Shown here in pieces: positions 27,621-46,988 of a DNA stretch of 64,000 nucleotides. A program made the position numbers and the translations under genes. Where the stretch lies: contig NZ_QGGX01000004.1 of the NCBI RefSeq assembly GCF_003148805.1, forward strand, positions 248,001-312,000. Reading direction: 5' to 3'. The notes beneath the pieces were generated by a model. It saw nothing but the letters and a program-made list of their open reading frames with translations. It was not told the DNA's origin and did no database searches. Source of the stretch: Aminobacter sp. AP02 (GTDB lineage Bacteria; Pseudomonadota; Alphaproteobacteria; Rhizobiales; Rhizobiaceae). Numbering within the stretch: position 1 is the first letter of the stretch; each line of letters begins with the position of its first letter.

Positions 27621-27660
27621 GTCATGGTGAGGTGCAACAAACCAATTGGGAGACATTGGA

Positions 27661-28971
27661 ATGAGGGGACTTGTTACAGGTTGGACCATGACGGCAATGG
27701 CTGGGCTCGTTGCAGCCGGCGTAAGTTTCTCGGCGCCCGCTCAGGCAGCCGATGACACGATCAAGGTGGGCGTGCTTCACTCGCTTTCGGGAACGATGGC
27801 GATTTCGGAGACCACGCTCAAGGATACGATGCTGTTCCTGATCGAGGAGCAGAACAAGAAAGGGGGCTTGCTCGGCAAGAAACTCGAGGCGGTCGTCGTC
27901 GATCCAGCCTCGGACTGGCCGCTCTTCGCCGAAAAGGCACGCCAGCTGATCGAGCAGGACAAGGTCGCCGCCGTCTTCGGCTGCTGGACGTCGTCGTCGC
28001 GCAAGTCGGTGCTGCCTGTGTTCGAGGAACTCAATAGCCTTTTGTTCTATCCCGTCCAGTATGAGGGCGAGGAAAGCCAGCGCAACGTCTTCTACACTGG
28101 CGCGGCGCCCAACCAGCAGGCCATTCCCGCGGTCGACTATTTGATGAACGAGGAAGGCGTCCAGCGCTGGGTGCTTGCGGGCACCGACTACGTCTATCCC
28201 CAGACGACCAACAAGATCCTGCAGGCCTATCTGGCGTCGAAGGGCGTGGCAGCCGAAGACATCATGGTCAACTATACGCCATTCGGTCATTCCGACTGGC
28301 AGACCATCGTCTCCGACATCAAGAAATTTGGCTCGGCCGGCAAGAAGACCGCCGTCGTCTCGACGATCAACGGCGACGCCAATGTTCCTTTCTACAAGGA
28401 ACTCGGCAACCAGGGCATTAAGGCCGAAGACATTCCGGTGGTTGCCTTCTCCGTCGGCGAAGAGGAACTCGCCGGCCTCGACACCACGCCTCTGGTCGGC
28501 CACCTCGCTGCCTGGAACTATTTCCAGTCGGTCGATAGCCAGGCCAACGCAGAGTTCATTTCAGCCTGGAAGGCTTACACCAAAAACGACAAGCGCGTGA
28601 CCAACGACCCGATGGAAGCGCATGTCATCGGCTTCAATATGTGGCTGAAGGCTGTCGAAAAGGCCGGCACCACCGATCCGGATGCCGTGATCGACGCTAT
28701 CGTCGGCGTGTCGGTGCCCAACCTGTCGGGCGGCTTTTCAACGATGATGCCGAACCACCACATCACCAAGCCGGTGCTGATCGGCGAAATACAGGCTGAC
28801 GGCCAATTCGAAACCGTGTGGCAGACGGCCGGTCTCGTGGTGGGCGACGAGTGGTCCGACTACCTCGAGGACTCCAAAAACCTTATTGCCGACTGGAGGG
28901 CGCCGATGTCCTGCGGCAACTTCAACGTGGCGACCGGCAAATGTGGCGGCAAGGGCGGCACGACGAACTGA
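27661..28971 (+). CDS. urtA: Urea ABC transporter, substrate-binding protein
   Basis: 436 residues. A signal peptide (about 1-30, ending PAQA-ADDT) precedes a type I periplasmic binding protein: IKVGVLHSLSGTMAISETTLKDTMLFLIEEQNKKGG, VFGCWTSSSRKSVLPVFEE, LLFYPVQYEGEESQRNVFYTGAAPNQQAIPA. These blocks are diagnostic of UrtA/FmdD-type proteins and distinguish it from branched-chain amino acid binders. The ATG at 27661 has GGGAGA seven bases upstream; an in-frame TTG lies at 27646. First gene of urtABCDE behind a sigma-54 promoter. Urea is preferred over short-chain amides. Confidence 0.95.
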   Translation: MRGLVTGWTMTAMAGLVAAGVSFSAPAQAADDTIKVGVLHSLSGTMAISETTLKDTMLFLIEEQNKKGGLLGKKLEAVVVDPASDWPLFAEKARQLIEQDKVAAVFGCWTSSSRKSVLPVFEELNSLLFYPVQYEGEESQRNVFYTGAAPNQQAIPAVDYLMNEEGVQRWVLAGTDYVYPQTTNKILQAYLASKGVAAEDIMVNYTPFGHSDWQTIVSDIKKFGSAGKKTAVVSTINGDANVPFYKELGNQGIKAEDIPVVAFSVGEEELAGLDTTPLVGHLAAWNYFQSVDSQANAEFISAWKAYTKNDKRVTNDPMEAHVIGFNMWLKAVEKAGTTDPDAVIDAIVGVSVPNLSGGFSTMMPNHHITKPVLIGEIQADGQFETVWQTAGLVVGDEWSDYLEDSKNLIADWRAPMSCGNFNVATGKCGGKGGTTN

Positions 28972-29083
28972 CCGCTTCGCCGTGCAAATGGTCCTGGGCG
29001 GCAGGCTTGCCCGGGACCATCTTCCTCGACGATCAGCGCCAGCAATGACCGTCGCCAACGATCCTCCGGACCGGTGACATTTC

Positions 29084-30700
29084 ATGGGTTTTCTTAGGAA
29101 GGTGGTCGCAGCTTGCCTCATTGTGGCGGCAACGCTCCACGGCGCTGCCGCTGACGAGGCAGACCTGCGTCTGTTGGTCGCCAAATTCGCGGCTGCGAAG
29201 AACTTCCAGGCCACCGAGGCAGTGGTGCGCGAGCTCGGCGCCACTGGCGACCCCGCCGTCGAAAAGCTGCTCACTGCTCTGTCGCAGGGCGGGCTTTATG
29301 TTCGCAAGGGCGACGATGCGGTCTTCGTCGGCGACGAGACAGGTCAGGATGTCCAGCTGCGCGACCCGTTAAACGGCGCACCAGCAGGCGTGGCCGCAAA
29401 GGCCGACCTTTCCAAGGTCAAGGTGAACAACGCGCTACGCCGCGTCATCCGCGACGCGCTGGGCGGACTGACGCTGGGCTCGAAAGATCCGGCTGTTCGG
29501 CTCGCGGCGGCGGATACGATGTTCAGGAATCCTGATCCGGCTGCCATCGCGGCTCTCGATACAGCGATTGCCGGGGAGGACGTGACCAGCGTCAAGACGC
29601 GGCTGGAGCAGGCGCGCGCCGCGGCCGTGCTGCTTTCCGACCTCGGCGAAGCCGACAAGATGACGGCGATCGACACATTGTCGGCCCGCGCCGACCAGGA
29701 TGCGCTGTCGCAGCTCACCCGCTTCCACACCAGCGCTCAAGGTGCGCTCCGGGATGCCGCAGGTGCGGCGGTTGCCCTGATCCACCAGAGGCTGGCCTTG
29801 TGGCAAGTCGCCCAGAACGTCTGGTACGGCATCTCGCTCGGCTCGGTGTTGCTGCTGGCAGCTATCGGTCTTGCCATCACCTTCGGCGTCATGGGCGTCA
29901 TCAACATGGCGCACGGCGAGATGGTTATGCTCGGCGCCTACACCACCTTTGTCGTGCAGCAGGCGATCCGCGCCCTTGCCCCCAACCTGTTCGACTGGTC
30001 GCTTGCCGTCGCCCTGCCGATGGCCTTCCTTGTTGCTGGTGCCGTCGGTCTCGCTATCGAGCGCGGCATCATCCGCTTCCTCTACGGTCGTCCACTGGAA
30101 ACGCTGCTGGCCACCTGGGGCGTTTCGCTGATCCTGCAGCAGGCGGTGCGCACTATCTTCGGGCCGACCAACCAGGAGGTTGGTACGCCACCATGGATGT
30201 CGGGCTCGCTTCAGCTTGGCCAGCTGGCCATCACCTGGAACCGGCTGTGCATCGTCGTCTTCTGCCTGGCTGTATTTGCGCTGCTGCTATGGGTCATGAA
30301 GCGTACGCGCTGGGGCCTGCAGATGCGCGCCGTCACCCAGAACCGCCGTATGGCCGCCTCGATGGGCATACGCACGCCTTGGGTCGACGCGCTGACCTTC
30401 GCGCTCGGCTCCGGGATCGCCGGCATCGCCGGTGTCGCGCTTAGTCAAATCGACAACGTCTCGCCCAATTTCGGCCAAGGCTACATCATCGACAGCTTCA
30501 TGGTTGTTGTCTTCGGCGGCGTCGGCAACCTGTGGGGCACCTTCGTGGGTGCGATGTCACTGGGCATCCTCAACAAGTTCCTCGAACCCTACGCCGGGGC
30601 CGTGCTCGGCAAAATCATTGTGCTTGTCCTGATCATTCTATTCATCCAGAAGCGCCCGCGCGGCCTGTTTGCGCTCAAGGGCAGGGCGGTGGAAGCATGA
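29084..30700 (+). CDS. urtB: Urea ABC transporter, permease (long form)
   Basis: 538 residues. A signal-like N-terminus and a soluble helical domain of about 220 residues, typical of proteobacterial UrtB, come before a LivH-like permease with about eight TM helices. GVMGVINMAHGEMVMLGAYTTF and FGGVGNLWGTFVGAMSLGILNKFLEP are characteristic. The stop overlaps the urtC start (ATGA at 30697-30700). The 112-base gap after urtA contains no recognisable gene. Confidence 0.94.
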   Translation: MGFLRKVVAACLIVAATLHGAAADEADLRLLVAKFAAAKNFQATEAVVRELGATGDPAVEKLLTALSQGGLYVRKGDDAVFVGDETGQDVQLRDPLNGAPAGVAAKADLSKVKVNNALRRVIRDALGGLTLGSKDPAVRLAAADTMFRNPDPAAIAALDTAIAGEDVTSVKTRLEQARAAAVLLSDLGEADKMTAIDTLSARADQDALSQLTRFHTSAQGALRDAAGAAVALIHQRLALWQVAQNVWYGISLGSVLLLAAIGLAITFGVMGVINMAHGEMVMLGAYTTFVVQQAIRALAPNLFDWSLAVALPMAFLVAGAVGLAIERGIIRFLYGRPLETLLATWGVSLILQQAVRTIFGPTNQEVGTPPWMSGSLQLGQLAITWNRLCIVVFCLAVFALLLWVMKRTRWGLQMRAVTQNRRMAASMGIRTPWVDALTFALGSGIAGIAGVALSQIDNVSPNFGQGYIIDSFMVVVFGGVGNLWGTFVGAMSLGILNKFLEPYAGAVLGKIIVLVLIILFIQKRPRGLFALKGRAVEA

Positions 30701-31905
30701 TGACGGGACGCTTCTTCGCCGGCAGCGCCACCAGCCGAATCGCGATCACGATCGCCGTCCTGCTGGCAATCGCCGTGATCGTGCCCATCCTCAACATCGC
30801 AGTACCGACAGGCAGCGCACTGCATGTGCCAAACTATGTCGTGGGGCTGGTGGGCAAGTACCTGTGCTATGCGCTGCTAGCGCTGGCTCTCGACCTAGTG
30901 TGGGGTTATTGCGGCATCCTTTCGCTCGGCCATGGCGCGTTCTTCGCGCTCGGGGGCTATGCGATGGGCATGTACCTGATGCGCCAGATCGGCGATCGAG
31001 GTGTTTACGGCAATCCGCTGCTGCCCGATTTCATGGTGTTCCTGAACTGGAAGGAGCTGCCCTGGTTCTGGTCGGGCTTCGACCAGTTCTGGTTCGCCGC
31101 CCTGATGGTGATGGCGGTACCCGGGCTGCTAGCCTTCGCCTTCGGTTGGTTCGCCTTCCGCAGCCGCGTCACCGGCGTCTACCTGTCCATCATCACGCAG
31201 GCCATGACATATGCGTTGATGCTCGCCTTCTTCCGCAACGACATGGGGTTCGGCGGCAACAATGGGCTAACCGACTTCAAGGACATCCTTGGTTTCAATA
31301 TTCAGGCCAATACCACGCGCTCGGGCCTGTTCGCCGCAACTGCAACGGCCCTGGCATTTGGCGTGTTCGTCACCTGGTGCATTGTCGGCTCGAAGTACGG
31401 CAAGCTGTTGATGGCCGTGCGCGATGCTGAAAGCCGCACCCGCTTCCTCGGTTGGCGGGCGGAGAACGTCAAGTTGTTTGCCTTTACCGTTTCCGCGGTA
31501 ATGGCCGGCATCGCCGGCGCGCTGTACGTGCCGCAGGTCGGTATCATCAATCCTGGCGAATTCGACCCGGCCAACTCGATCGAGGTGGTGGTCTGGGCCG
31601 CCGTCGGGGGGCGCGGCACAATCGTCGGCCCGATCATCGGTGCGGTTCTCGTCAATGCGGGCAAGAGCTGGTTCACCGGCGCGCTCCCGGAATTCTGGCT
31701 ATTTGCGCTCGGCGGTCTGTTCATAGCCGTCACGCTTTTCCTGCCGAGCGGCATCGTCGGCACGTGGGACCGCTGGCAGCCGGCGCGGCCGGCCCGCGGC
31801 ACTGCCAAAGTCGATGTGGTGCCCGAACGTATCGTTGCGCCCGCGGAGAGCTCGGGCGCGCATCCGATGGCCGGCGCAAAGCCACAACCGCAACCTGCGG
31901 AGTGA
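30697..31905 (+). CDS. urtC: Urea ABC transporter, permease
   Basis: 402 residues, LivM-like, with about ten hydrophobic segments. LALDLVWGYCGILSLGHGAFFALGGYAMGMYLM is the hallmark block. NNGLTDFKDILGFNI and LVWAAVGGRGTIVGPIIGAVLVNAGKSWFT are typical of UrtC. The ATG at 30697 overlaps the urtB stop; longer in-frame starts would run into urtB. A Pro/Ala-rich cytoplasmic tail of about 40 residues ends the protein. Confidence 0.94.
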   Translation: MMTGRFFAGSATSRIAITIAVLLAIAVIVPILNIAVPTGSALHVPNYVVGLVGKYLCYALLALALDLVWGYCGILSLGHGAFFALGGYAMGMYLMRQIGDRGVYGNPLLPDFMVFLNWKELPWFWSGFDQFWFAALMVMAVPGLLAFAFGWFAFRSRVTGVYLSIITQAMTYALMLAFFRNDMGFGGNNGLTDFKDILGFNIQANTTRSGLFAATATALAFGVFVTWCIVGSKYGKLLMAVRDAESRTRFLGWRAENVKLFAFTVSAVMAGIAGALYVPQVGIINPGEFDPANSIEVVVWAAVGGRGTIVGPIIGAVLVNAGKSWFTGALPEFWLFALGGLFIAVTLFLPSGIVGTWDRWQPARPARGTAKVDVVPERIVAPAESSGAHPMAGAKPQPQPAE

Positions 31906-31909
31906 GGCG

Positions 31910-32656
31910 ATGAGCAGGGCAAACACTATTCTCTATCTGGACGGCGTGTCGGTGTCCTTCGACGGCTTCCGCGCCATCAACAACCTGTCGCTGGTGCTCG
32001 ACAAGGGCGAGATGCGGGCAATCATCGGCCCCAATGGCGCTGGCAAGACAACGATGATGGACATCGTCACGGGCAAGATGCGGCCAGATGCCGGCGAGGT
32101 TTATTTCGACGGCGATGTCGACCTGACGCGCCACGACGAGGCCGACATCGCCATGATGGGCATCGGCCGCAAGTTCCAGAAGCCGACGGTGTTCGAGAGC
32201 CACACGCTCGAAGACAACCTGCTCTTGTCGCTGAAGGGCCCGCGCTCGATTCTGCCGGCACTGTTTCACCGCCGTTCGACCGCCGAGACCAGTCGCATCG
32301 ATGAAATATTCGGCCTCATCCGTCTGGGTGACCGTCGCCGCGACCTTGCCGCCAGCCTGTCCCATGGCCAGAAACAATGGCTGGAGATCGGCATGCTGCT
32401 GGCTCAGGATCCCAAGCTGCTGTTGGTCGATGAGCCGGTCGCCGGCATGACGGACGCCGAAACCGAAGAGACGGTGCGGCTGCTCAAGGATATCGCCCAG
32501 ACCCATTCGGTGATCGTCGTCGAGCACGACATGCATTTCGTCCGCGAACTCGGCGTCAAGGTCACCTGCCTTCACGAAGGTAAAGTGCTGTCGGAAGGCA
32601 CGCTCGACTTCGTGTCTGCCGACGAACGTGTCGTCGAAGTCTATCTGGGGCGATGA
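31910..32656 (+). CDS. urtD: Urea ABC transporter, ATP-binding protein
   Basis: 248 residues, LivG-like ATPase. Walker A is GPNGAGKTT, the ABC signature is SHGQKQWLEIGMLL (the SHGxxQ form characteristic of UrtD), and Walker B is LLLVDEPVAGM followed by the switch His in VVEHDMHF. The start at 31910 lies 4 bases after urtC with GAGGCG before it. It pairs with UrtE to energise uptake. Confidence 0.94.
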   Translation: MSRANTILYLDGVSVSFDGFRAINNLSLVLDKGEMRAIIGPNGAGKTTMMDIVTGKMRPDAGEVYFDGDVDLTRHDEADIAMMGIGRKFQKPTVFESHTLEDNLLLSLKGPRSILPALFHRRSTAETSRIDEIFGLIRLGDRRRDLAASLSHGQKQWLEIGMLLAQDPKLLLVDEPVAGMTDAETEETVRLLKDIAQTHSVIVVEHDMHFVRELGVKVTCLHEGKVLSEGTLDFVSADERVVEVYLGR

Positions 32657-32780
32657 CGATGAGGTGGCGAGCGAACGTACCGGCACTTCAATGGCAACCA
32701 TCGGGCCTGGTTTCACGGCCAGCTTCGGTCTGCCCGAGCAAATTTCACCAACCTCCCCTGGCGCGCCGGAAGGTTCGCCA

Positions 32781-32801
32781 CCCCCGCCCCGGTGGCGGGG
32801 G
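32781..32801 (+). repeat. GC-rich hairpin between urtD and urtE
   Basis: CCCCCGCC and GGCGGGGG form a perfect 8-bp stem with a 5-base loop, inside a 174-base gap otherwise empty of genes. Without a T-run it is unlikely to end transcription, but it could trim or protect the upstream mRNA. Confidence 0.45.
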
Positions 32802-32830
32802 CGCGGGGGGCCCACAAATGGAGCCGGAGC

Positions 32831-33526
32831 ATGCTTGAGGTCACCGACGCCGTGCTCCACTACGGTGCGGCCGAGGCATTGAGGGGCGTCTCGCTTACCG
32901 CGCAGCCAGCGCGCATCACCTGCGTGCTTGGCCGCAACGGGGTTGGCAAGACAAGTCTGATGAGATCGATCGTCGGCCAGCAAAGGCTGACATCCGGCAC
33001 CGTTGCCTTCGAGGGGAAGGCGCTCGACCGGAGCGCGGCGTATTACCGCGCCCGGTCGGGCATCGCATTCGTGCCGCAGGGGCGGGAGGTTTTCCCGCTA
33101 CTGTCGGTCAGGGAAAACCTTGAGACTGGCTACGCCCCGCTCAAACGGGCCGAGCGCCAAGTACCGGACTATGTCTTCGAACTGTTTCCGGTGCTGCGGC
33201 AAATGTTGTCGCGGCGTGGCGGCGATCTTTCGGGCGGCCAGCAACAGCAGTTGGCCATCGGCCGGGCGCTGGTGATGCGGCCCCGGCTCCTCGTGCTCGA
33301 TGAACCGACCGAGGGCATCCAGCCGTCGATCATCAAGGATATCGGCCGCGCGATCCGCTACCTGCGCGACACCGCCGGCATCGCGATACTGCTTGTCGAG
33401 CAATACCTCGATTTCTGCCGGGAACTAGCCGATGTCGCGTACATCATGGATCGGGGGCAGATCGTTCATAAAGGCCCCGCCGAGGATCTGGAGCGAAGTG
33501 AGATCCGTAGGCTGCTCACTGTCTGA
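32831..33526 (+). CDS. urtE: Urea ABC transporter, ATP-binding protein
   Basis: 231 residues, LivF-like ATPase. Walker A is GRNGVGKTS (the UrtE form), the signature is LSGGQQQQLAIGRAL, and Walker B is LLVLDEPTEGIQPS with ILLVEQYLDF. It completes urtABCDE. Urease genes do not follow in this window. Confidence 0.94.
   Translation: MLEVTDAVLHYGAAEALRGVSLTAQPARITCVLGRNGVGKTSLMRSIVGQQRLTSGTVAFEGKALDRSAAYYRARSGIAFVPQGREVFPLLSVRENLETGYAPLKRAERQVPDYVFELFPVLRQMLSRRGGDLSGGQQQQLAIGRALVMRPRLLVLDEPTEGIQPSIIKDIGRAIRYLRDTAGIAILLVEQYLDFCRELADVAYIMDRGQIVHKGPAEDLERSEIRRLLTV

Positions 33527-35189: not shown

Positions 35190-35208
<19 letters not shown>
34321..35208 (+). CDS. Alpha/beta hydrolase (dienelactone hydrolase/esterase-like)
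   Basis: 295 residues, no signal peptide. The fold is seen in [13 protein letters not shown] (oxyanion strand), the nucleophile elbow [16 protein letters not shown] (Ser near 162), the acid in [12 protein letters not shown] and the catalytic His in [11 protein letters not shown]. Such cytoplasmic esterases remove acyl or methyl groups. Its 3' end overlaps the convergent ABC ATPase gene by 19 bases, and that operon handles oligouronides. A deacetylase or demethylesterase acting on imported pectin fragments is plausible but unproven. Confidence 0.78.
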
Positions 35209-36287
<1,079 letters not shown>

Positions 36288-36296: not shown

Positions 36297-37349
36297 TTAT
36301 TTCAAGCCGGTCCCGGCGATGCCGGCGGTGATGTAGCGCTGCAGGAAGATGAAGACGAGCACGACCGGGATCATGGTCACGACGGTCATGGCCAGTATGA
36401 AGTGCCACTGCACGTTCAACTCTCCCGCATAGGTATTGAGGCCGACCTGCAACGTGTAGAGCTCCTTGCGCGACAACACGACCAGCGGCCAGAGGAAATC
36501 GTTCCAGCGCCAGACCACCGAGAAGATGGCGAGCACCGCCAGGGCTGGCGCTGCAAGGGGCAGCACAATTCGCCAGTAGATCTGCCATTCGGACGCATTG
36601 TCCATGCGCGCCGCGTCGATCAGTTCGTCGGGAATGGTCAACATGTACTGGCGTAGCAGGAACACACCGGTCGGGGTCGCGACGGTGGGCAGTATAACGC
36701 CCCAGAGCGAGTCGAACAGGCCGACGGCGCTGATGACCGAATAGAGCGGCACCAAGAGGACGGAGAGGGGCACCATCAGCGTGCCGACGATGAGCAGCAG
36801 CACCAGATTGCGTCCGCGAAACTCGTATTTCGACAGGGCGAACGCGGCCATGGAGTTGGTAAGCAATGTGATCAGCGTCGCCACCACGGTCACGAAAACC
36901 GAATTCTTGAGGTATTGCAGGAAGTCGAAATGCTCGAAGGGCTGGGTGTAGTTCTCCGTCGCGAAACGGATCTCGCGCACCGGCTGGCGATCGGCGATAT
37001 TGACCTTGAAGATCTCGCCCGGCGCCTTCGGATCGACGAGCTGGGAGACGGTCCCGACGCGGCGGACCTCGGCCATGACCCTGGTCGTGCCGTCCGGAAG
37101 CTGGGCGGTGAAGAGATTGAGCGGCTTGTCATATCCTGCCACCGCCACCTGTTCGGTGGCGTAGGGCAGCAGGGTCGGGGGAAATTCCGCCAGCTGCGCC
37201 GGCGTCTTGAAAGATGACAACACCAGCCAGAGTGCTGGGCCGAACATGAGGACGAGGCCGCCGACCAGCCAGGCCCACATGAAGATGTCGGTCCAGTGCC
37301 AGCCGCGTCCGCCGCGCCGGCGCGTCAGGAAGGCGACGACCTGGCTCAT
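36297..37349 (-). CDS. Sugar ABC transporter permease (MalG type)
   Basis: 350 residues. Six TM helices are expected. The EAA loop toward the C-terminus reads ELIDAARMDNASEWQIYWRIVLPLAAPALA. A periplasmic insertion of about 80 residues lies between TM1 and TM2 (about 55-135), seen in some CUT1 permeases for large oligosaccharides. It overlaps the partner permease by four bases (ATGA). It forms the channel with the protein encoded at 37346-38368. Confidence 0.9.
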   Translation of the reverse strand: MSQVVAFLTRRRGGRGWHWTDIFMWAWLVGGLVLMFGPALWLVLSSFKTPAQLAEFPPTLLPYATEQVAVAGYDKPLNLFTAQLPDGTTRVMAEVRRVGTVSQLVDPKAPGEIFKVNIADRQPVREIRFATENYTQPFEHFDFLQYLKNSVFVTVVATLITLLTNSMAAFALSKYEFRGRNLVLLLIVGTLMVPLSVLLVPLYSVISAVGLFDSLWGVILPTVATPTGVFLLRQYMLTIPDELIDAARMDNASEWQIYWRIVLPLAAPALAVLAIFSVVWRWNDFLWPLVVLSRKELYTLQVGLNTYAGELNVQWHFILAMTVVTMIPVVLVFIFLQRYITAGIAGTGLK

Positions 37350-38368
37350 TCGCGCGCGCCCTTCTTTTCGTTGCGACGGCCAACCTGCAGCTGCACAAGC
37401 GTGAGCACGACCAGCACGGCACCCATCAGGATCGAGGCGGCGGCGGCCAGGCCGGGATTGCGCAGCAGCGAAGCGAAGCCGACCTCGTAAATGTACTGGG
37501 TCAGGAACAGCGTCGACGTGCCGGGACCACCGCCGGTGAGGACGTAGACCTCGTCGAAAATCTGCACCGCGCGTATGAGCGCCAGGATGATGACTACGAG
37601 CAGGTTCGGCATCAGCAGAGGCAATGTGATGCGCCAGAACACGCGGCCGGGCCTGGTGCCGTCCATCTCTGCGGCTTCATAGAGATCGCGCGGGATGGCC
37701 TGCAACCCGGCCAGAAGGATCAGCGTGAAGAAGCCCATATGCGCCCACACCGACACGGTGACGCCGGCGGCGAAGGCCCAGAAGCGGTCGGTCAGCCATT
37801 CCGTGGGTTGATATCCGAATTGGTAGAGCATCGAATTGAGCAGGCCCTGCCGCTGCAGGATCCAGCGCCAGATCAGGCCAACGACGACTGGCGACAGCAG
37901 GACGGGAAAGAAGAACACCGCGCGCCAGAAGCTGCGGCCGACAATCTCGCGATTGAGGATCAGCGCCGTGATCATCGAAACCACGACGAGCAGCGCCACC
38001 TGCAGCACCACGAACAACCCGGTGTTGTGCACCGCTTTCCAGAACAGGTCCTCGCGGCACGACGAGGGATCGAGGTAGCTGCCGCACTCGAGCAGCCGCC
38101 GGTACTGATCGGCGCCGACGAAGTTGCGGTCCGGCAGGAAGAAGGCGTTCCCGGAAGTCGTGGAGTAGAGGAAATTGATGATGAAGGGCGCCAGCACGAA
38201 GATGCCGAAAATCAGCATGTTCGGGGCCAGGAAGAACGCCGCCATGCCATTGGTGCCCGTCGCGCGCTGCCACAGCTTGAGCGGCGCGTCGACGATCGCG
38301 GCAAGCCAGCTGATCGGCGCGGCAATTGCTGCGCCGATCTTCTGACCGATGGTGGTTTGCACCGTCAT
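37346..38368 (-). CDS. Sugar ABC transporter permease (MalF type)
   Basis: 340 residues with about six TM helices after an N-terminal cytoplasmic segment. The EAA motif DLYEAAEMDGTRPGRVFWRITLPLLMPNLLV is intact. A periplasmic loop carries two cysteines (LLECGSYLDPSSCREDLFWKAV) that could form a disulfide. Overlaps of four bases with the binding-protein gene and with the second permease show tight coupling. Confidence 0.9.
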   Translation of the reverse strand: MTVQTTIGQKIGAAIAAPISWLAAIVDAPLKLWQRATGTNGMAAFFLAPNMLIFGIFVLAPFIINFLYSTTSGNAFFLPDRNFVGADQYRRLLECGSYLDPSSCREDLFWKAVHNTGLFVVLQVALLVVVSMITALILNREIVGRSFWRAVFFFPVLLSPVVVGLIWRWILQRQGLLNSMLYQFGYQPTEWLTDRFWAFAAGVTVSVWAHMGFFTLILLAGLQAIPRDLYEAAEMDGTRPGRVFWRITLPLLMPNLLVVIILALIRAVQIFDEVYVLTGGGPGTSTLFLTQYIYEVGFASLLRNPGLAAAASILMGAVLVVLTLVQLQVGRRNEKKGARE

Positions 38369-39633
38369 TTCGCCTGCGCGACTTTATCGGCGATGTCCTG
38401 GTCCATCTTGGCCCAGGCCTCGTCGAGCTGCATCTCGCCGGCCATGACCTGCGAAAGGCGCGTGACCAATGCGGCATAGTAGGCGTTGGCCCACTTCCAT
38501 GACGGCAGCGCGTCGGCCGCCGGCAGCGTCTGGCCGGCCGACTTTACGAAGGCATCCAGCGCGGGCGCGACGTTCTTGTCGTTGCTGACCCACTTCAGGC
38601 CGCCCTTGTCGACCACGCCCTTGTGGGCGGGCAGGAACAGCGTGCGTTCGCTGAATTCCTTCACGATGTCCTCGCGGCCGAGATATTCCATCACCTTGAC
38701 GACGTCGTTCGGGTTCTTGGTGTACTTGATCCCCACGAGCGCGGCGCCGCCCTTGAGGCCCGAGCAGCCCGCGGAGCCGCATGGGGAGCCCGTCGCCACC
38801 CAGTCGAAGCCGTCGCCGATCTTGGACGACAGATTGGCGACCTGCCAGCTGCCGGAATAGTAGAACGGAATCTGGGCGTTGATGAAGTCGTCGGCCGCCG
38901 CGCGATAGGTCGAGCCGGCGGCGGCAACCCAGGTCTCCTTCAGCATCTTGCCGTCGGCGACCCACTGCACGAGCTTGGAGCCAAAGGCCTTCACACCATC
39001 GTCGATCTTGGCGGGGCTACCGTCGGCAGCGATGTAGTTTGCGCCATAGGACACGTTCGGGCCGGAGATGCGGTGGCCCGAGCGGTCGATGGCAAAGGCG
39101 GCCGGAAGGCTCTGGCTCTTGGATACCTGGGCGGCCGCGTCGACCCATTCATCCCACGTGGCCTTCTCGCCAGGGACTGCCACGCCGGCCTGCTCGAACA
39201 GGGTCTTGTTGGCGAAGCCCCCGGTCAGCGTCAGCTGGGTCATGAAGCCGGGGATGGCATCCGATCCGTCGGGGCGCATCCAGTCGAGCGTGGAGCCGAA
39301 GTTGTCGTCCCAGTACTTGGCGTCCTTGAGCATCGGGCGCATGTCCAGCCAATGCCCGGCGAGTTCCTTGATGTTGGTGACGCGGGCGATGTCGGGGCCC
39401 TGGCCTGCCTCGAGCTGGATCGGCAACTGCTCCTGAACGACCTTGTAGGCGACGTTGTCGAGCGTGATCTTGATGTCGGGATTCTCCTTTTGGAAGCGGT
39501 CCAGAAGGTCCTTGATGACCTCTCCCTCGACGCCGTCGGAGTACCACATCACCCGCACTTCGCCGGCGTAGGCAGCGCTGCTCGCCAGCAGAGTAGCCGC
39601 CAGCGCGCCCAGAATCTTGGCCTTGTGTTTCAT
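38365..39633 (-). CDS. Sugar ABC transporter substrate-binding protein
   Basis: 422 residues. A signal peptide (MKHKAKILGALAATLLASSAAYAG) leads a family 1 extracellular solute-binding protein: VRVMWYSDGVEGEVIKDLLDRFQKENPDIKITLDNV, GQGPDIARVTN and PIPFYYSGSW-like segments. The second ATG (39633) is chosen because GGGAGG sits eight bases before it; ATG 39639 is too close. It captures the oligosaccharide in the periplasm. The ligand is inferred from the neighbours (GH105, KduI) to be an unsaturated or short oligo-galacturonide or rhamnogalacturonide. Confidence 0.9.
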   Translation of the reverse strand: MKHKAKILGALAATLLASSAAYAGEVRVMWYSDGVEGEVIKDLLDRFQKENPDIKITLDNVAYKVVQEQLPIQLEAGQGPDIARVTNIKELAGHWLDMRPMLKDAKYWDDNFGSTLDWMRPDGSDAIPGFMTQLTLTGGFANKTLFEQAGVAVPGEKATWDEWVDAAAQVSKSQSLPAAFAIDRSGHRISGPNVSYGANYIAADGSPAKIDDGVKAFGSKLVQWVADGKMLKETWVAAAGSTYRAAADDFINAQIPFYYSGSWQVANLSSKIGDGFDWVATGSPCGSAGCSGLKGGAALVGIKYTKNPNDVVKVMEYLGREDIVKEFSERTLFLPAHKGVVDKGGLKWVSNDKNVAPALDAFVKSAGQTLPAADALPSWKWANAYYAALVTRLSQVMAGEMQLDEAWAKMDQDIADKVAQAK

Positions 39634-39685
39634 ATCCATTCCTCCCTGGATGCGGGCGGCGCCCGCTCGTTTGGTAGCGTATTCC

Positions 39686-42205
39686 TCAAACCTGCCCGGA
39701 AGCGAGCCGGGTCGCCTGTCCTCCTATCGTCCACTCGGACGGATCGACGGTTCTCCCTTCCGCCGTCACCGCTCCATTGTCGCCAAAGCGAACCTCGCCA
39801 TAGTCCGGATCATCGACGATCAGCCCGCCATCCTCGCCAGCGCACAGCGCCAGTGCGCCGAACCGCGCCGCGAACGCATCGAGCGACCCGCAGGACGCGC
39901 GGTCTCCCAGCCGCACTATCCAGGTCGACTTCCTGCCGGCGACACGCAGCTCGTTGCCCGCCGTCGGGCCGGACGCCACTTCGACCAGCGGCGCGCTCGC
40001 CCTGAGCAGGACAAAGGCGTCATCCGCTTCCGCCAGCGCGAGCGGTCCCTCGAGGCGCGAGGAAGAGAACTTGCCCTTTGGAAACCACGCATGAGTGAAA
40101 TCGGGCTGTTCGTCCGAGCAATCGAACACGACCAGCGCCAGTCCGCGGTACTGGTGTACCCGCGGCAGCGTGCCGGACCCGCCCCAGTAGGACGGTCGGC
40201 CATAGCCGGATTGCAGGACCTCGCCCGGATGGTTGATCCATATCTGGGCGTCGGGGTCACGGCCGAGCCGGAGCTGGATGACCGTTTCCTGGTATCCCCA
40301 CTGGGTCCAGCGATAGGCGGCGGCGGTGCCTATGGCATAGTCGCGGGTCTTGTAGTGATAGAGCCGGGCGAAGCGATCCTGTCCCTGGGCGAATATCCAT
40401 TCCCAGTGTTCGTCGCCCGCCACCGAGGCAATCGCGGCGAGTTCGCCGGGGATCTCCATGCCATGGTCGCGCAGGCAGAGCGCCAGCTGGGGCAGGGCAT
40501 GGAAGCGCATGCCGTAATTGCCCGCGCCCCAGATCATGCGGCAAATGCCCGAAAGTTCCAGCGAGCGCGAAGCGCGTAGCGTGTGCTCGTAGGAGCGGCC
40601 CTGCGCACCGGTCATCTGGCCGTGGTGGGCGGAGCGGGCGATGATCTCGAGCAGGCGGACGATCGCCTTGCCGGCACGGCCGCGAATATCGGCGTCAGGG
40701 GCCAGTGCGTAGAGCGCGCAGAGGCCCTTCAGGTCGATGGGGAAATAGGGCGCCGAGTTGAACTCGGCCATTTCCCATTGCTCGAAATGATCGAGCCAAG
40801 CGCGCACGCGCTGCGCTCCGACGGCCGATTGCTGCGCGCCCGTCCGGCCCGAGCGCTCGAACCGCGCCTCGGGAAGGATGTACCCGGCAAGATAGGCCGC
40901 GGTGTGGAAGAGCAGGGCGTGGTTTTCTGAGAAGTACCACTGCACGTCGTTGCCCGGCTCATCCATCCAGTAACGATAGCCGAGGATGGCGGCATCAATG
41001 CGTTCGACCAGCGCGGGGTCGATGTCGCGCGCATATGCTGCGCGCGACCACAGCAGCGGCACAAGGATGAAGTCGGCGCAGTCGTGGCAATCCTCGATGG
41101 CCGGCAGCGAGGCGGCGATCATCCTGTCGGTCTTGTCGCCGCCACGTCCGGTCGAAAGGCGCGCGAGCGCGCAGACCGTGTCCATCTCGGCGTGCTCGGC
41201 GACCTGGTTCAGCGCCTCGTCGATCCGCGCCGCAAGATCCGCGGGCGCAGTGCCCTGTTGCGTTGCGTGGCAGATTTCGACGCCGAAGACGCGCGATACG
41301 GCAAAACCGCCGATCTCGAGCGTGACCTTAAAATGGCGAAAATCCGCCGGCAGGTCGTTGGCGTTCGCGATCGGCAAGCGCGTCGCGCCCGCTTTCAGCG
41401 TGAATTCGCGGCGCAGCGGTTCGTCGATGGACATGAAGTCGCCTTCGATCACCGCGGTGACACGGGCATCGGCAGGCAGAGCGACGCCCGAGACGAGAGC
41501 GACCTCGCCATCGTCATAGGTCGCCCGCTCGAAGCGCATGGAATCGAGGGCCGCCTCCATTCGGTCGGCGACCGGTGCGTCTACGGGGAGGGGCAGTGCG
41601 TGCGTCGCCGCGGGGCCAGAAACATAGTCGAGCTGGAAATAGTAGCGCGCGTCGCGCTCGGCCAGGTCGTCGAACCAGATGCGGATGTCGTTGCGGCCGG
41701 CCTCAAGCTGTGTGGCGAAATGCTCGGCGGTTTCGAGGTTGCGGCCGTAGGGAGCCATCCAGCCGATTTCCCGGCCGTTGACGAACAGGATGGCGCCACC
41801 GCAGGTGCGCAGGCGCAAGGTGGCGTCGCCGGACGCGGCACAGTCGATGCTCGTCTCGGCCCATGTGCCGATCACGGTTGGCCTGAACCAGAAGCCGGAC
41901 AGGTCGACGCGCGGCGAGGCGAATGGCAGCCAGACCCGCTCCATGTCCGCTTCAGAGCCCGGCTGCGGACGCTTGCCGCGTCGCTCGGCCGCGAACTGCG
42001 TGCGGCAGGGATATTCGTGCGGAATGAAGTTCTTGTGCTTGGTCAGGAAGAAGAAGGGATCCATTTCCCCCTTCATCGGCTGATCGGGCACGTCGTAGCG
42101 CGCCTCCGAGGTTCCGCTCAGCCGCCAATAGGTCACCGGTTCGCCCGCCGCCAGGGGCCGGTGGAGGACATGACCCGGATGGGTGGACTTCGCGGGAGCC
42201 GTCAT
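39686..42205 (-). CDS. Large uncharacterised carbohydrate-active protein (beta-sandwich + alpha/alpha toroid + beta domain)
   Basis: 839 residues, no signal peptide, so probably cytoplasmic. Residues ~85-200 look like a galactose-binding-type jelly roll (FWFRPTVIGTWAETSID, ILFVNGREIGWMAPYGRNLE). Residues ~320-640 are helical with repeated Trp/His/Tyr-rich segments: WMDEPGNDVQWYFSENHALLFH (413-434), EFNSAPYFPIDLKGL (481-495), GRSYEHTL (536-543). Residues ~650-839 are beta-rich. An (alpha/alpha) toroid followed by a beta-sandwich, with conserved Asn-His and Tyr/Arg motifs, is the architecture of several polysaccharide lyases (such as PL8, PL15, PL17) and some glycosidases. The ATG overlaps the kduI stop and the next gene is the ABC binding protein. 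An exo-lyase or glycosidase for imported uronides is inferred; I cannot name the family. Confidence 0.7.
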   Translation of the reverse strand: MTAPAKSTHPGHVLHRPLAAGEPVTYWRLSGTSEARYDVPDQPMKGEMDPFFFLTKHKNFIPHEYPCRTQFAAERRGKRPQPGSEADMERVWLPFASPRVDLSGFWFRPTVIGTWAETSIDCAASGDATLRLRTCGGAILFVNGREIGWMAPYGRNLETAEHFATQLEAGRNDIRIWFDDLAERDARYYFQLDYVSGPAATHALPLPVDAPVADRMEAALDSMRFERATYDDGEVALVSGVALPADARVTAVIEGDFMSIDEPLRREFTLKAGATRLPIANANDLPADFRHFKVTLEIGGFAVSRVFGVEICHATQQGTAPADLAARIDEALNQVAEHAEMDTVCALARLSTGRGGDKTDRMIAASLPAIEDCHDCADFILVPLLWSRAAYARDIDPALVERIDAAILGYRYWMDEPGNDVQWYFSENHALLFHTAAYLAGYILPEARFERSGRTGAQQSAVGAQRVRAWLDHFEQWEMAEFNSAPYFPIDLKGLCALYALAPDADIRGRAGKAIVRLLEIIARSAHHGQMTGAQGRSYEHTLRASRSLELSGICRMIWGAGNYGMRFHALPQLALCLRDHGMEIPGELAAIASVAGDEHWEWIFAQGQDRFARLYHYKTRDYAIGTAAAYRWTQWGYQETVIQLRLGRDPDAQIWINHPGEVLQSGYGRPSYWGGSGTLPRVHQYRGLALVVFDCSDEQPDFTHAWFPKGKFSSSRLEGPLALAEADDAFVLLRASAPLVEVASGPTAGNELRVAGRKSTWIVRLGDRASCGSLDAFAARFGALALCAGEDGGLIVDDPDYGEVRFGDNGAVTAEGRTVDPSEWTIGGQATRLASGQV

Positions 42206-43035
42206 TTCAGCTCCTTGAGCGCGACCGGGCTGACGTCGTTGTATGCCTGGTTTTCGCCGGTCATGCCCCACACAAATGCGTAAGGTCCGGTGCCGGCGCC
42301 CATGTGGATCGACCAGGCGGGAGAGAGCACCGCATTGCCGTTGGCAATGATCAGGTTGCGGGTCTGGTCGGGCCGGCCCATCAGATGGATCACGCGGTCG
42401 TCGTCGGAAAGGTCGAAATAGCAATAGGCCTCCATGCGCCGCTCGTGCAGGTGCGGCGGCATGGTGTTCCAGACGCTGCCGGGCGCGAGGTCCGTGATGC
42501 CCATCAGGAGCAGGCACGAGGGCGCCACTTCCGGATGGATGTACATCACCAGGCGGCGCTTGTTCGACCGGGCCGCGTCGCCGAGATCGAGCGGCTTGCC
42601 CTCCGCGCGCGGAATGAGGCGATGGGGGATGTCGGCCCCGGCGGGAACGGAGTTCATGTAGAACCGCGCCGGCGTCGCCGCATCGTCGCTCGTCAGCGTG
42701 ACGGAGCGCGCGCCGCGCCCGACATAGACGATATCGCGATTGGCGACAGGAAAGCGCCGGCCGTCGATCTCGACGATGCCCGCCCCGCCGAGGTTGGCTA
42801 TGCCCATTTCGCGCGCGGTGAAGAAGTACTCGGTTCCGACGTCGGCACCGTCGCCGAAGCGCAGCGGGGTCGACAGGGGCATCGCGCCCCCAAGGATCAT
42901 GCGGTCGACATGGGTGTAGACGAAACTGATCTCGCCCGGGGCAAACAAATCCTCGACAAGGTACTCGGACCGCAGGCGGTCGGTATCCATGGCTGCGACT
43001 TCGCTGGGGGATGTACCGTAGAGCACGCGCATCAT
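42202..43035 (-). CDS. kduI: 5-dehydro-4-deoxy-D-glucuronate isomerase (copy 1)
   Basis: 277 residues. KduI converts 4-deoxy-L-threo-5-hexosulose uronate to 2,5-diketo-3-deoxygluconate, the step after unsaturated uronates are released. Signatures: YLVEDLFAPGEISFVYTHVDRMILGGAMPL near the start and the zinc-site motif NTMPPHLHERRMEAYCYFD (two His, Glu), with a final His in AWSIHMGAGT. It sits between GH105 and the 839-residue protein, with four-base overlaps on both sides. A second kduI is at 58150-58989. Confidence 0.94.
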   Translation of the reverse strand: MMRVLYGTSPSEVAAMDTDRLRSEYLVEDLFAPGEISFVYTHVDRMILGGAMPLSTPLRFGDGADVGTEYFFTAREMGIANLGGAGIVEIDGRRFPVANRDIVYVGRGARSVTLTSDDAATPARFYMNSVPAGADIPHRLIPRAEGKPLDLGDAARSNKRRLVMYIHPEVAPSCLLLMGITDLAPGSVWNTMPPHLHERRMEAYCYFDLSDDDRVIHLMGRPDQTRNLIIANGNAVLSPAWSIHMGAGTGPYAFVWGMTGENQAYNDVSPVALKELK

Positions 43036-44132
43036 GTGGCCTCCCGCATTTTACCGAGCGTTTCCAGCCCTTCGGTCAGACACAGGATGGCCAAGGCCTG
43101 GCCGTAGCCGGTCGGCTGGATCGGAATGTCACGGTAGAACTGCAAATCATGCCCCATGCGAGTGCCGTATGAAACATTCGAGACGACGCCGTCGGCGCTG
43201 ATGTTCGACACGACGGCGTCCAGTGCGCGCAGGCCGGCCTGGCGGTGCTCGGGGCCGACGAGGCCAAGCCTTGCCGCCTTCATCAGGCCGTAGCCAAAAC
43301 CGGCGGTGGCTGAAATCTCTTCATAGGACGACGGATCGTCGAGCAGCGTATGCCATGCGCCCGAGGGCGCCTGCAGCTTCAGCAGCGCATCCATCTGCGC
43401 ACCCAGCACGCCGAGCAGGAAGTCGCGCACCGACGGTGAAATCTCAGCCAGTTCGATCAGGTCCAGAATACCGACGGTGATCCAGCAGTTGCCGCGGCCC
43501 CACAGGGCGCGGGCGAAGTTGTGGCGTCCGGCGAATGTCCAGCCGTGAAACCAGAGGCCGGTCGTGGGATCGGCGAGGTAGCGCGCATGGACGAGGAACT
43601 GCCGTTCGGCTTCATCGACAAATCGACGCTGGCCCGACGCCTGGCCGAAGGATGCCAGGAACAAGGCGACCATGAACAGCGTGTCGTCCCAGAGCTCGTC
43701 GTCGTTGATCTTGTCGGAGACGTTGTGCTGGAAGCCGCCTTCGGGCGTGCGCGGCATCGTGTCGGTTACGCGCGTGGCCCAGTCCTGCAGGATCGACTCG
43801 AAACGCGGCTGGCGCTTTCGCTGCCAGATGCGGCTCAAGGCCAGCAAAGGTGCTGTGGTGTTGACGTTCATCTCGGGCAGGCCGGCCGCGACGCGGCGGT
43901 CGTACCAATCCTCTATGGTGGCGAGCAGCCTTTCGTCTCCGCTGCCCTCGCAAAGGCGTGAAAGACCGTAAAGGCCCACGCCCTGTGGCCATTCCCAGCT
44001 GTCGAAGCTGACGTAGTCTCCGGGCGTGCCGTCGAGGTTCGGCTCGTGGAAGCGCCCATCGGCGCGCAGGCCGGTCATGCCTTTAACAAGGCTGGCCAGC
44101 GCCGTCTCAACCTGCTGCATGGAAAGCGGCAT
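43032..44132 (-). CDS. Unsaturated rhamnogalacturonyl/glucuronyl hydrolase, GH105 (GH88-like)
   Basis: 366 residues, (alpha/alpha)6 barrel, no signal peptide. DDTLFM (149-154) carries the proposed catalytic Asp of GH105/YteR, and ALWGRGNCW (209-217) the family motif. TAGFGYGLMKAARLG and IPIQPTGYGQALAIL close the barrel. These enzymes hydrate the delta-4,5 double bond of terminal unsaturated galacturonate or glucuronate, releasing the 4-deoxy-keto-uronate used by KduI. ATG 44132 starts MPLSMQQ; the frame stays open far upstream, through the antisense of lacI, but those residues are not part of this family. It is first in the minus operon, divergent from the LacI regulator. Confidence 0.88.
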   Translation of the reverse strand: MPLSMQQVETALASLVKGMTGLRADGRFHEPNLDGTPGDYVSFDSWEWPQGVGLYGLSRLCEGSGDERLLATIEDWYDRRVAAGLPEMNVNTTAPLLALSRIWQRKRQPRFESILQDWATRVTDTMPRTPEGGFQHNVSDKINDDELWDDTLFMVALFLASFGQASGQRRFVDEAERQFLVHARYLADPTTGLWFHGWTFAGRHNFARALWGRGNCWITVGILDLIELAEISPSVRDFLLGVLGAQMDALLKLQAPSGAWHTLLDDPSSYEEISATAGFGYGLMKAARLGLVGPEHRQAGLRALDAVVSNISADGVVSNVSYGTRMGHDLQFYRDIPIQPTGYGQALAILCLTEGLETLGKMREAT

Positions 44133-44180
44133 GGCTCCTCCCAAGGGCTTCCTTGCAAGAAGGTTCCACACGGCAACTTC

Positions 44181-44188
44181 TTGCGCAA
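44181..44188. promoter_or_regulatory. Candidate LacI operator between GH105 and lacI-type genes
   Basis: TTGCGCAA is an 8-bp palindrome with the central CG expected of LacI-family sites, in the 99-base divergent promoter region. A related TTGC...GCGCAA occurs at about 44201-44214. It would control both the GH105-kduI-ABC operon and the regulator itself. Confidence 0.4.
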
Positions 44189-44231
44189 TCTGAAAACTTT
44201 TTGCAGAATGCGCAAAGGAGCAGAGGTGTCT

Positions 44232-45302
44232 ATGGAAGGCAAACGCGGAAGGCCGAACCGCAGGGTGCGGCTTGAAGAAGTCGCCAAGCGTTGCGGCGTT
44301 TCGGTCAGCACGGCCTCCCGGGCCCTGACCGGTGCCGCAGGCGTGCGCGAGCCCATGCGCGCCGCGATCATCGAGGCCGCGCGCTCCCTCAGCTATACGA
44401 TTCCCACCTCCGTGGTCGGGCGCAAAGTGATCGTAGCGGCGAGCAGCGCTGCCATGATCGACAATTCGCGCGCCCAGTTCACCTTCCACGTGCTCGACGG
44501 TCTCAACGAACGCGCCCGCGTGCTCGGCGTGGAGCTTGCGACGCGGCCGGTCGCCGGCGCCGAAGACGAACTTGCCCTGTTGCGCGAAGCGGAAGCCGAT
44601 CCCTCCGTTGCCGGCTGCCTGTTCCTCACGCTCGAGGACGACATGCTGCCGCTGACTGAAGGGTTCTCCAAACCCATCGTGCTCATCAATGGCGACGATC
44701 CGACCATGCGCCATTCGAGCGTCACGCCCTGCAACAGAGCGGCGGCGCAATTTGCGACGACCCGCCTCCTGCAACTCGGCCATCGTCGCATCCTCTTCCT
44801 GATGCGACGCGGGCGGCGCACAATCGAGCGGCGGTTCGAGGGCTGGCGCGACGCGCTGACAGCCAGCGCTGAAGGCCGTGTCGAAGACCTCGTGGTGGAG
44901 GTGGACGACTGGCTGCCCGAACTTGCTGCGGCGGCGATCGCGCGGCGCATCGATGCCCGCGGCGTCGATTTCACCGCCGTTCTCACGGCGGGCGACAGCC
45001 TGGCCTATGGCGCCATCATCGGGCTGGAACAGAAGGGCGTCGCAGTGCCCGAGCAGGTTTCGGTCATCGGCATGGACGACCTGCCGCAATCGGCCTTCTG
45101 CAATCCGCCGCTGACGACCATGCACATCCCCATGCGCGAACTGGGGTCGGCGGCGCTCACCTTGCTGCTGGAGCATCTGAGCGGCGGCCCCTGGCTGGCG
45201 CGGCGCGTCGAACTGGCGTGCAGGCTGGTCGAGAGGCAGTCGACGGCACCGGTGCGCGCGCATCGCCTCGACCTTCAGGCGTCAGGTGCGAAGAGCCGGT
45301 AG
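44232..45302 (+). CDS. LacI-family transcriptional regulator
   Basis: 356 residues. The N-terminal helix-turn-helix is RLEEVAKRCGVSVSTASRALTGAAGVREPMRAAIIEAARSLSY, with the hinge helix region just after. The periplasmic-binding-protein-like effector domain contains GHRRILFLMRRG and VPEQVSVIGMDDLPQSAFCNPPLTT. AAAGGAG precedes; ATG 44232 gives MEGKRGRPN, and a GTG at 44226 is possible. Divergent from the oligouronide operon, it is its likely repressor. Its 3' end overlaps the convergent flavin reductase gene by 28 bases. Confidence 0.9.
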   Translation: MEGKRGRPNRRVRLEEVAKRCGVSVSTASRALTGAAGVREPMRAAIIEAARSLSYTIPTSVVGRKVIVAASSAAMIDNSRAQFTFHVLDGLNERARVLGVELATRPVAGAEDELALLREAEADPSVAGCLFLTLEDDMLPLTEGFSKPIVLINGDDPTMRHSSVTPCNRAAAQFATTRLLQLGHRRILFLMRRGRRTIERRFEGWRDALTASAEGRVEDLVVEVDDWLPELAAAAIARRIDARGVDFTAVLTAGDSLAYGAIIGLEQKGVAVPEQVSVIGMDDLPQSAFCNPPLTTMHIPMRELGSAALTLLLEHLSGGPWLARRVELACRLVERQSTAPVRAHRLDLQASGAKSR

Positions 45303-45814
45303 CGTCCGGCCGAAAACACCATCGGCTCGCCCTCGCGCGAGGTCATGCGCAACACCTGGCCGAGCAGCATCTCGTGATCGCCGCCGGTGAACCGGTTGGC
45401 CGTCCTGCATTCGAAACGCGCCAGCGCACCCGGCAGCAGCGGCGCACCCTCATTGCTGTAGGCGAGATCGACTCCCGTGAAGTCATGGCCGGAGCGGGCG
45501 AAGCGCCAGCACAGGTCGTGCTGCTCCACGGCAAGGACATGGATCGCAAAATGCTCGCATTCGGCAAAGGCGGCAAATCGGCTGGAATGGCGCCCGATAC
45601 CCCAGATGACCAGGGGCGGGTCGAGAGACACTGAAGAGAAGCTGTTGGCTGTGATGCCAAGCGGGCCTTTCGGCGTTTGTGTGGTGACGATTGTCACCCC
45701 CGTCGTGAAGCGCCCGAATGCACTCCTCAGCGGCCGCGGATCGTCCGGCTGGGGGACAAGCACGGGCGGCATGTGGCAAGTGCCGGCAGTAGTTCCCGTC
45801 AGTTCGGTGTGCAT
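45275..45814 (-). CDS. Flavin reductase (FMN-dependent), partner of a two-component monooxygenase
   Basis: 179 residues. The flavin-reductase-like domain is clear: RSAFGRFTTGVTIVTTQTPKGPLGITANSFSSVSLDPPLVIWGIGRHSSRF, then CEHFAIHVL and the C-terminal GGDHEMLLGQVLR. It reduces FMN or FAD with NAD(P)H and hands it to a monooxygenase. The start at 45814 has GAGGAGGG upstream. It follows the LLM monooxygenase gene by 16 bases, so the two form a functional pair. Confidence 0.88.
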   Translation of the reverse strand: MHTELTGTTAGTCHMPPVLVPQPDDPRPLRSAFGRFTTGVTIVTTQTPKGPLGITANSFSSVSLDPPLVIWGIGRHSSRFAAFAECEHFAIHVLAVEQHDLCWRFARSGHDFTGVDLAYSNEGAPLLPGALARFECRTANRFTGGDHEMLLGQVLRMTSREGEPMVFSAGRYRLFAPDA

Positions 45815-45830
45815 TACGGAATTTCCCTCC

Positions 45831-46988
45831 TCATTGACGGATTCCGGTTCCCAGCGGCGTTGCCGGCACCGTCGCCGGAACGCGGCCGTAGACATGCGGC
45901 AACGAACAGGTCTTGAGGTGCGGCAGGACCTTCGTCCCGAAATGGCGGCACTCGTCGAGATGCGGGTAGCCGGAGAAGATGAAGGCGCGGATGCCCATCT
46001 TCTGGTAAGCCTCGATCTCGCTCATCACCTGATCGACCGAGCCGACGATGGCTGCGCCGCAGCCCGAGCGCGCGCGACCGATGCCGGTCCACAAATGCGG
46101 TTCGATGTAGCCTTCCTGGTCGGCCAGGTCGCGGTTGCGCGCCTGTTGCGCCACGCCCAGCGACCTGGCGTCGAGCGCACGTGCGCGGATCGCGTCGCCC
46201 TGGTCGGCGTCCAGTTTCGAGACCAGCTCGCGGGCGTATTCGCGCGCCTCAACCTCGGTGTCGCGAACGATCATGTGGACGCGCAGGCCGTAGTCCAGCG
46301 TGCGGCCATGGCGCGCTGCCCGATCATGCACGGCCTTCATGTGCTGCGCCAGCTCATCCTTCGTCTCTGGCCACATCAAGTAGACGTCGCATTGTTCGGC
46401 GCAGAGCTCGAGTGCGTCGGGCGAATAGCCGCCGAAATAGAGCAGGGGGCCGCCGTTCTGCTGAAAGGGCTTGGCCGGCGCGGTGGTCAGGCCCTTGAAC
46501 CGATAGATCTCGCCCTCATGGTCGAAGGCGTCCTGGGTCCAGGCCTGCCGCAATATCTGCACGACCTCGCGCGAGCGCCGGTAGCGATAGGCACTATCGG
46601 CCGTTTCGCCGGGAAAGTCCGACGAGATGATGTTGACCGTCAGGCGCCCCTGCAACATGTGGTCGAGGGTAGCGACGGTGCGCGCCAGCATGATCGGGTG
46701 CATCTCGCCGCATCGCACCGCCGCCAGCATGTTGATGGCCGAGGTGATGGGTGCGCAGCCGGCGACGAAGCTCAACGTATCCTGCCCGACCTGATAGGAC
46801 GAAGGGCACAGGATGTTGCGGAAGCCGAGTTCCTCCGACAGCTTCACGATGTCCGAGCAGTGCTCCCAATTGGAACGCAGCGCGCCATCCGGCACGCCGA
46901 GATACCTGTAGTCGTCCGAGCAGAGAGCCGCGAACCACGACACTTCGGCGGCGTCGAGATCGGCGGAGGTGATTGGCACGATGGTCAT
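45831..46988 (-). CDS. Luciferase-like flavin-dependent monooxygenase (SsuD-like)
   Basis: 385 residues, bacterial luciferase TIM-barrel fold. [77 protein letters not shown] matches alkanesulfonate monooxygenase-type LLMs, as does [15 protein letters not shown]. These enzymes use reduced FMN and oxygen to cleave C-S, C-N or similar bonds. No sulfonate transporter lies nearby; the neighbours are uronide genes and a divergent GntR regulator, so the substrate is unknown. SsuD itself is only one possibility. Confidence 0.86.

Follow-up and report, generated by a model that had tools for sequence, protein, structure and literature searches.

Many soil and plant-associated bacteria, and some from seawater, carry a sugar-acid operon with a GH105-type unsaturated uronyl hydrolase. 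Which enzyme makes the substrate of this hydrolase? None has been named for that step in the operon. We studied the locus in Aminobacter sp. AP02 within a stretch of 64,000 nucleotides (the window; NZ_QGGX01000004.1, positions 248,001 to 312,000). Our analysis points to an 839-residue protein, here called X, which probably acts in the cytosol as a beta-eliminating lyase on imported uronate oligosaccharides and so supplies GH105 with its substrate. The features are as follows, in window coordinates; locus counts refer to the 80 related loci described below.

35190..36287, minus strand: UgpC-type ABC ATPase (74/80 loci; annotated homologs)
36297..37349, minus strand: ABC permease 2 (76/80 loci; annotated homologs)
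37346..38368, minus strand: ABC permease 1 (77/80 loci; annotated homologs)
38365..39639, minus strand: sugar ABC transporter solute-binding protein (annotated homologs; tblastn in 80/80 loci)
39686..42205, minus strand: X, 839-aa candidate uronate-oligosaccharide lyase (translation, AF2, Foldseek)
Domains of X: GH2-like N-part, ~1-311; predicted (alpha/alpha) toroid, ~318-595; predicted antiparallel beta domain, ~600-839 (AF2, Foldseek)
42202..43035, minus strand: KduI (PF04962 match, E 7.8e-22), its stop overlapping the X start
43032..44132, minus strand: GH88/GH105-type unsaturated uronyl hydrolase (PF07470; profile and PDB sequence matches)
44181..44215, plus strand: candidate LacI operator region TTGCGCAA...ATGCGCAA, between LacI and GH88 (box enrichment over loci)
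44232..45302, plus strand: LacI-family regulator, divergent (tblastn in 74/80 loci; annotated homologs)

The protein described in the original prediction is real. The minus strand is free of stops over 839 aa from 42205 to 39686, the plus-strand reading is interrupted by stops, and translation puts WYFSENHALLFH at residues 423-434 and GRSYEHTL at residues 536-543, as had been claimed. The description of X as locked between kduI and the transporter by overlapping codons holds on the kduI side, where ATGA at 42202-42205 contains both the stop of kduI and the start of X, but not on the transporter side, where a 46-base gap separates the end of X (39686) from the start of the binding-protein ORF (39639). 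The same ATGA register, between the end of the KduI match and an X start codon chosen by script, recurs in 47 of the 75 loci with KduI. By eye, no signal peptide is apparent at the N terminus of X, and the window's solute-binding protein has a signal-like N terminus.

A peptide pattern matched 126 stretches in the genome collection, 121 of which encode relatives of X. The best 80 of these 121, at 58-88% identity, form our set of group A loci, the window's own group, and carry the names of Rhizobiales, Rhodobacterales and their kin in their record titles. Counting the window's own genome, X occurs in 5 of 41 sampled relatives, 47 of 297 genomes of the family and 9 of 398 of the phylum. It is also matched by 200 plasmid records; among the 60 of these that were listed, a second form at ~33% identity, group B, occurs in Rhizobium and Sinorhizobium alongside the window's group. 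More distant members come from Haladaptatus, the gammaproteobacterium Catenovulum and Subdoligranulum (Clostridia), and no phage homolog was found among 50,697 records at E 1e-5.

The arrangement LacI/GH88-kduI-X-sugar ABC transporter is a well-kept operon. In addition to the transporter genes listed above, tblastn found GH88 in 78, KduI in 75 and KduD in 22 of the 80 group A loci, with the end of GH88 less than 1.5 kb upstream of X in 78. The seven-gene order GH88-KduI-X-SBP-permease-permease-ATPase is kept in 69 of the 80. Among the 11 exceptions, six (L018, L031, L059, L062, L075, L077) lie on contigs that end within ~3 kb downstream of X, three (L026, L066, L080) have no KduI, and two (L032, L072) have neither GH88 nor KduI. 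Annotated records show LacI divergent from GH88-kduI-X-ABC, with kduD after the ABC genes in both Phyllobacterium and Gemmobacter and, in the latter, also a sugar kinase. All 74 LacI genes of group A are divergent and lie within 600 bp upstream of GH88. Of 78 loci, which are related and hence not independent, 52 have the box TTGCGCAA in the 400 bp upstream of GH88, versus 3.5% of 1600 random 400-bp windows from the same loci; a paired box, like that of the window, was found in 1 of the 78. Upstream of the operon, 45275-46988 holds a flavin reductase and luciferase-like monooxygenase pair, and by eye an ORF set at 27646-33526 resembles a urea-type ABC transporter.

The GH88 neighbour extends to the more distant loci. 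Group B loci of R. etli and R. johnstonii read X-GH88-GH28-ABC, with the R. etli GH28 matching PF00295. GH88 adjoins X in S. fredii NGR234. The group B locus of Thioclava reads X-GH88-ABC-LacI and lies between a rhamnose operon and kduD-kduI-TRAP-GH88. In another class of the phylum, X is accompanied by GH88, KduD and KduI (G488), by KduI, KduD, TRAP and GH88 (G615), or by GH88 and ABC genes (G532). The Catenovulum locus has LacI, X and GH88, and that of Subdoligranulum has X then GH88, with a second GH88 also present. No neighbouring GH88 was seen in Haladaptatus, nor was a GH88 match found in 18 kb at one B-type X (G029, locus L135). There, at 7898-13490, X is followed by a GH38 alpha-mannosidase, and a different substrate is possible.

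The prediction that X belongs to no named family holds in the libraries searched. X has no significant match in Pfam, NCBIfam, PHROG or PDB sequences, and thus no strong profile match to a characterised CAZy family in these libraries. The best Pfam match, PF21467 at residues 114-154, is sub-threshold (15.3 versus 27.3 bits; E 0.023). NCBIfam and PHROGs gave chance-level matches only, and all PDB sequence matches to X or to a 38-row profile have E 0.056 or worse. A Pfam scan of all 38 alignment members returned nothing below E 0.0061 (lowest, Pentapeptide_3 and PA14), the 7 families that any member matched at E<=1 do not include heparinase II/III (PF07940), and the distant relatives L135, L087, L190 and L191 gave no Pfam match at E<=0.01. 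HHalign comparison of a 40-row X alignment with PL17, heparinase II/III, PL5 and PL38 sets gave probabilities below 0.5%. The value was 0.4% against 29 heparinase II/III proteins and 0.1% or less against five PL17-type proteins, one of which is verified (L187; PL17 chain 7bjt, E 1.2e-137), and X is thus not placed in PL17 by sequence. Neither does X fall into PL22, whose profile PF14583 matches nothing in the whole genome, or into GH88/GH105, as the genome's sole PF07470 match is the neighbouring gene. Judged by titles and abstract openings, we recognised no description of the X family among the papers that our literature searches listed.

Predicted structure supports a lyase-like fold for the core of X. 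The AF2 model of the full-length protein (pLDDT 86.6, pTM 0.88) has a beta-rich N-part to ~311, helices at 324-593 and a beta-rich C-part at 600-839, in agreement with the helical centre and beta-rich C-domain described originally. GH2 enzymes lead the Foldseek PDB list of this model at TM ~0.1, and PL17 Alg17c (4ok2) stands at rank 24 with prob 1.00. The GH2 matches, listed without a matched range, agree with the proposed galactose-binding-like N-domain, to which the sub-threshold PF21467 match may be added. In the viral library, an uncharacterized Tomelloso virus protein (BFVD A0A2H4T2N5) matches the full model at TMt 0.39; its function is uninformative. Because the full-length list was led by GH2 at such a TM, we refolded the core, 318-839, alone (73 rows; pLDDT 88.0, pTM 0.90). 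Ten of its 615 Foldseek matches (E<=10) reach E<=0.001, all with prob 1.00: two PL35, two PL17, three PL15, one PL12 and one PL21 enzyme, and dermatan sulfate epimerase 1. They include PL35 8khw (1.1e-7), PL17 4ojz (9.1e-7), PL15 3a0o, PL12 5jmd and PL21 3e7j. All ten have E no worse than 3.6e-5 and a TMq of 0.34-0.46, at an rmsd of 10-13 Å over the joined domains, and PL8 enzymes follow at 2.5e-3 to 5e-3.

The predicted helical toroid, followed by an antiparallel beta domain and structurally matched to members of the clan, is thus the polysaccharide lyase architecture that was originally proposed, with nine lyases and a sister epimerase as its closest matches. The modest global TM-scores and the absent profile link count against this assignment. 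A haloarchaeal relative of 661 aa is missing most of the N-part in the alignment, so that the unit shared by the family is the lyase-like core. X could instead be an (alpha/alpha)-toroid glycoside hydrolase, trimming a decorated sugar before GH105 acts on already unsaturated imports; the GH2 matches of the full model fit this, and the core list includes GH81, GH127, GH146 and GH9 further down. However, GH81 (E 0.012, prob 0.75-0.80, TMq 0.16) and GH127 (E from 0.013, prob at most 0.30, TMq at most 0.25) rank below all lyases; none of these hydrolases is better than E 0.012 or exceeds TMq 0.25, in contrast to the top ten, and X keeps an Asn-His...Tyr...His pattern. We consider a hydrolase quite improbable, and the glycosidase option of the original prediction is not established.

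For the lyase, the candidate catalytic triad is N428-Y487-H659, with spacings of 59 and 172. A PL35 paper gives Asn/Tyr/His positions of 201/258/413 in PL17, 192/246/401 in PL35, 186/239/405 in PL39, 336/390/555 in PL15 exoHep and 240/294/424 in PL12. The Asn-Tyr and Tyr-His spacings of these five are 53-57 and 130-166, and those of X lie just outside both ranges. The same table of that paper places His before Tyr in PL8 and PL23 and has Glu or Arg as the neutraliser in PL21 and alginate PL15, which counts against the assignment, as do the two spacings. An Asn immediately before His is also present in PL17, PL39 and exoHep; N428-H429 is the Asn-His pair that had been pointed out, in its expected place. 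According to a PL17 mutagenesis paper, N207L and Y264F are inactive, H418F has no detectable activity, and H208F has reduced activity and changed specificity. In the AF2 model N428-H429 and Y487 stand before the helices at 430 and 488, respectively, and H659 comes after strand 654-658 in the beta domain. By spacing and domain position rather than superposition, the putative triad nearly fits those published.

Conservation of these residues is close to complete. N428, H429, Y487, R537, Y539 and H705 are found in 73 of 73 group A rows and in all 39 distinct rows spanning groups A and B, another class of the phylum, Catenovulum, Subdoligranulum and Haladaptatus (two of the 39 being one gene with different starts). 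H659 is kept in 71/73 and 38/39. Gln replaces it in L072, which has no GH88 or KduI, and in L074, which has both; function may be changed in these two. H617, present in 73/73 of group A, was rejected as the catalytic His because group B and the distant members do not have it. The motif GRSYEHTL, put forward as a Tyr/Arg motif, is indeed invariant, yet it probably does not hold the catalytic Tyr, as Tyr487 matches the published spacing better; R537 and Y539 may bind substrate. The strongly conserved loops 480-484, 536-543 and 665-675 have the lowest confidence of the full model and may need substrate or a partner chain to become ordered. That X is a catalytically dead or purely sugar-binding accessory protein might be suggested by its large GH2-like N-part, but its active-site-like residues, unchanged in all 39 distinct rows, make this highly implausible.

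The predicted lyase-like fold, the predicted catalytic residues and the usually adjoining GH88 together suggest that X is probably the missing cutting enzyme of sugar-acid breakdown. The fold, operon and conservation parts of this explanation are supported by computation. The genome (100% complete by estimate) has a single PF07470 gene, that of the operon. Searched with a query (43032-44192) 20 residues longer than the gene, as in the Pfam and tblastn searches, its nearest solved chains are 3qwt ('Putative GH105 family protein', E 6.4e-95), 3pmm and 4xuv; the match to YteR is far weaker (E 1.6e-12). Genome-wide profile searches with PF14583, PF17389, PF00544 and PF05426 found no match, and the one PF07940 gene sits on another contig, its product having no PDB match at 0.001. 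On these searches, X is the leading candidate for making the GH105 substrate, unless the oligomers are unsaturated before import, as could well be the case in soil. A uronate C5-epimerase of the same fold could ready imported residues for another enzyme, and dermatan sulfate epimerase 1 (6hzn), which has a related active site, is the second-best core match with the highest TMq of the list (0.46). Nevertheless, one enzyme of the operon depends on a lyase product, and no other lyase was seen in the operon or, among the families searched, near it in the genome, so we regard an epimerase as very improbable.

We infer the activity, residue roles, exo mode and substrate of the lyase as follows. The ABC transporter, whose solute-binding protein has no PDB relative at 1e-10, would import a uronic-acid oligosaccharide. 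Asn428, helped by His429, would neutralise the uronate carboxylate, and Tyr487 and His659 would break the C4-O bond by beta-elimination, so that the new non-reducing end carries a 4,5-unsaturated uronate. GH105 would take off this residue, and KduI and KduD would turn 4-deoxy-5-keto-uronate into KDG. The intracellular pathway role originally suggested is supported as a likely one; removal of unsaturated uronates by X itself is unlikely, because the operon's GH105-type enzyme would do that. The observation behind the original prediction is confirmed, and its interpretation is partly supported.

The substrate is a more tentative matter. That the operon serves pectin was a guess, because glycosaminoglycans, like pectin, give rise to the substrate of KduI (PMC12838403). 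A glucuronate reading, drawn from UxaC, UxuA and UxuB at a distance of 8-12 kb in the window, was dropped because their proximity is not conserved (found in 0, 1 and 1 of the 80 loci, in flanks of up to 8 kb). As one substrate variant of the lyase, X could be an oligogalacturonate lyase in the role of PL22 Ogl in the homogalacturonan pathway, as suggested by the kduI neighbour, by kduD in some loci and by a genome without PL22. GH105 would seem superfluous for pure oligogalacturonides, however, and we consider this variant unlikely. The GH28 of B loci and the rhamnose operon of Thioclava suggest rhamnogalacturonides, our leading guess for sister group B; group A is without a hint of that kind. 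A bolder and rather doubtful possibility is that X founds a new PL family of cytosolic exo-lyases, spread over Alpha- and Gammaproteobacteria, Clostridia and haloarchaea, that replaces alpha-rhamnosidase. X would eliminate the non-reducing sugar (e.g. rhamnose) from the uronate 4-position, GH105 would then remove the unsaturated uronate, and the two would alternate down a rhamnogalacturonan-type chain, degrading it without a rhamnosidase.

If X is the lyase proposed here, a 'hypothetical protein' of 47/297 genomes of the family, 9/398 of the phylum and 200 plasmid records would have its function, and what may be a new family at CAZy level would be open to a simple absorbance test. On the predicted model, X represents a candidate for a new PL family that belongs to a fold clan already known.

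A LacI-controlled rhi cluster was predicted for rhamnogalacturonides in Rhizobiales and Erwinia in 2013, and the accessible part of that paper names no intracellular lyase of the X family (PMC3870299). The rhamnogalacturonide systems (RhiN, YteR, the rhi cluster) share with B-type X loci a LacI-family regulator, an ABC transporter and an unsaturated galacturonyl hydrolase. Dermatan sulfate epimerase 1 resembles X in fold, with the highest TMq, but is a human epimerase without a catabolic operon. The PL35 GAGases (8khw, 8khv) give the best core Foldseek E-value and have an Asn/Tyr/His triad like the putative one of X, at 10-11% identity. The PL17 oligoalginate lyase Alg17c (4ojz) shares the predicted toroid plus beta fold, the Asn-His pair, a Tyr at +57 (+59 in X) and a His in the beta domain. 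Alg17c is exolytic, a mode that is only predicted for X; profile similarity between the two is undetectable, and X has an extra N-part of ~310 residues. Unlike Alg17c, X has GH105 and KduI as its neighbours.
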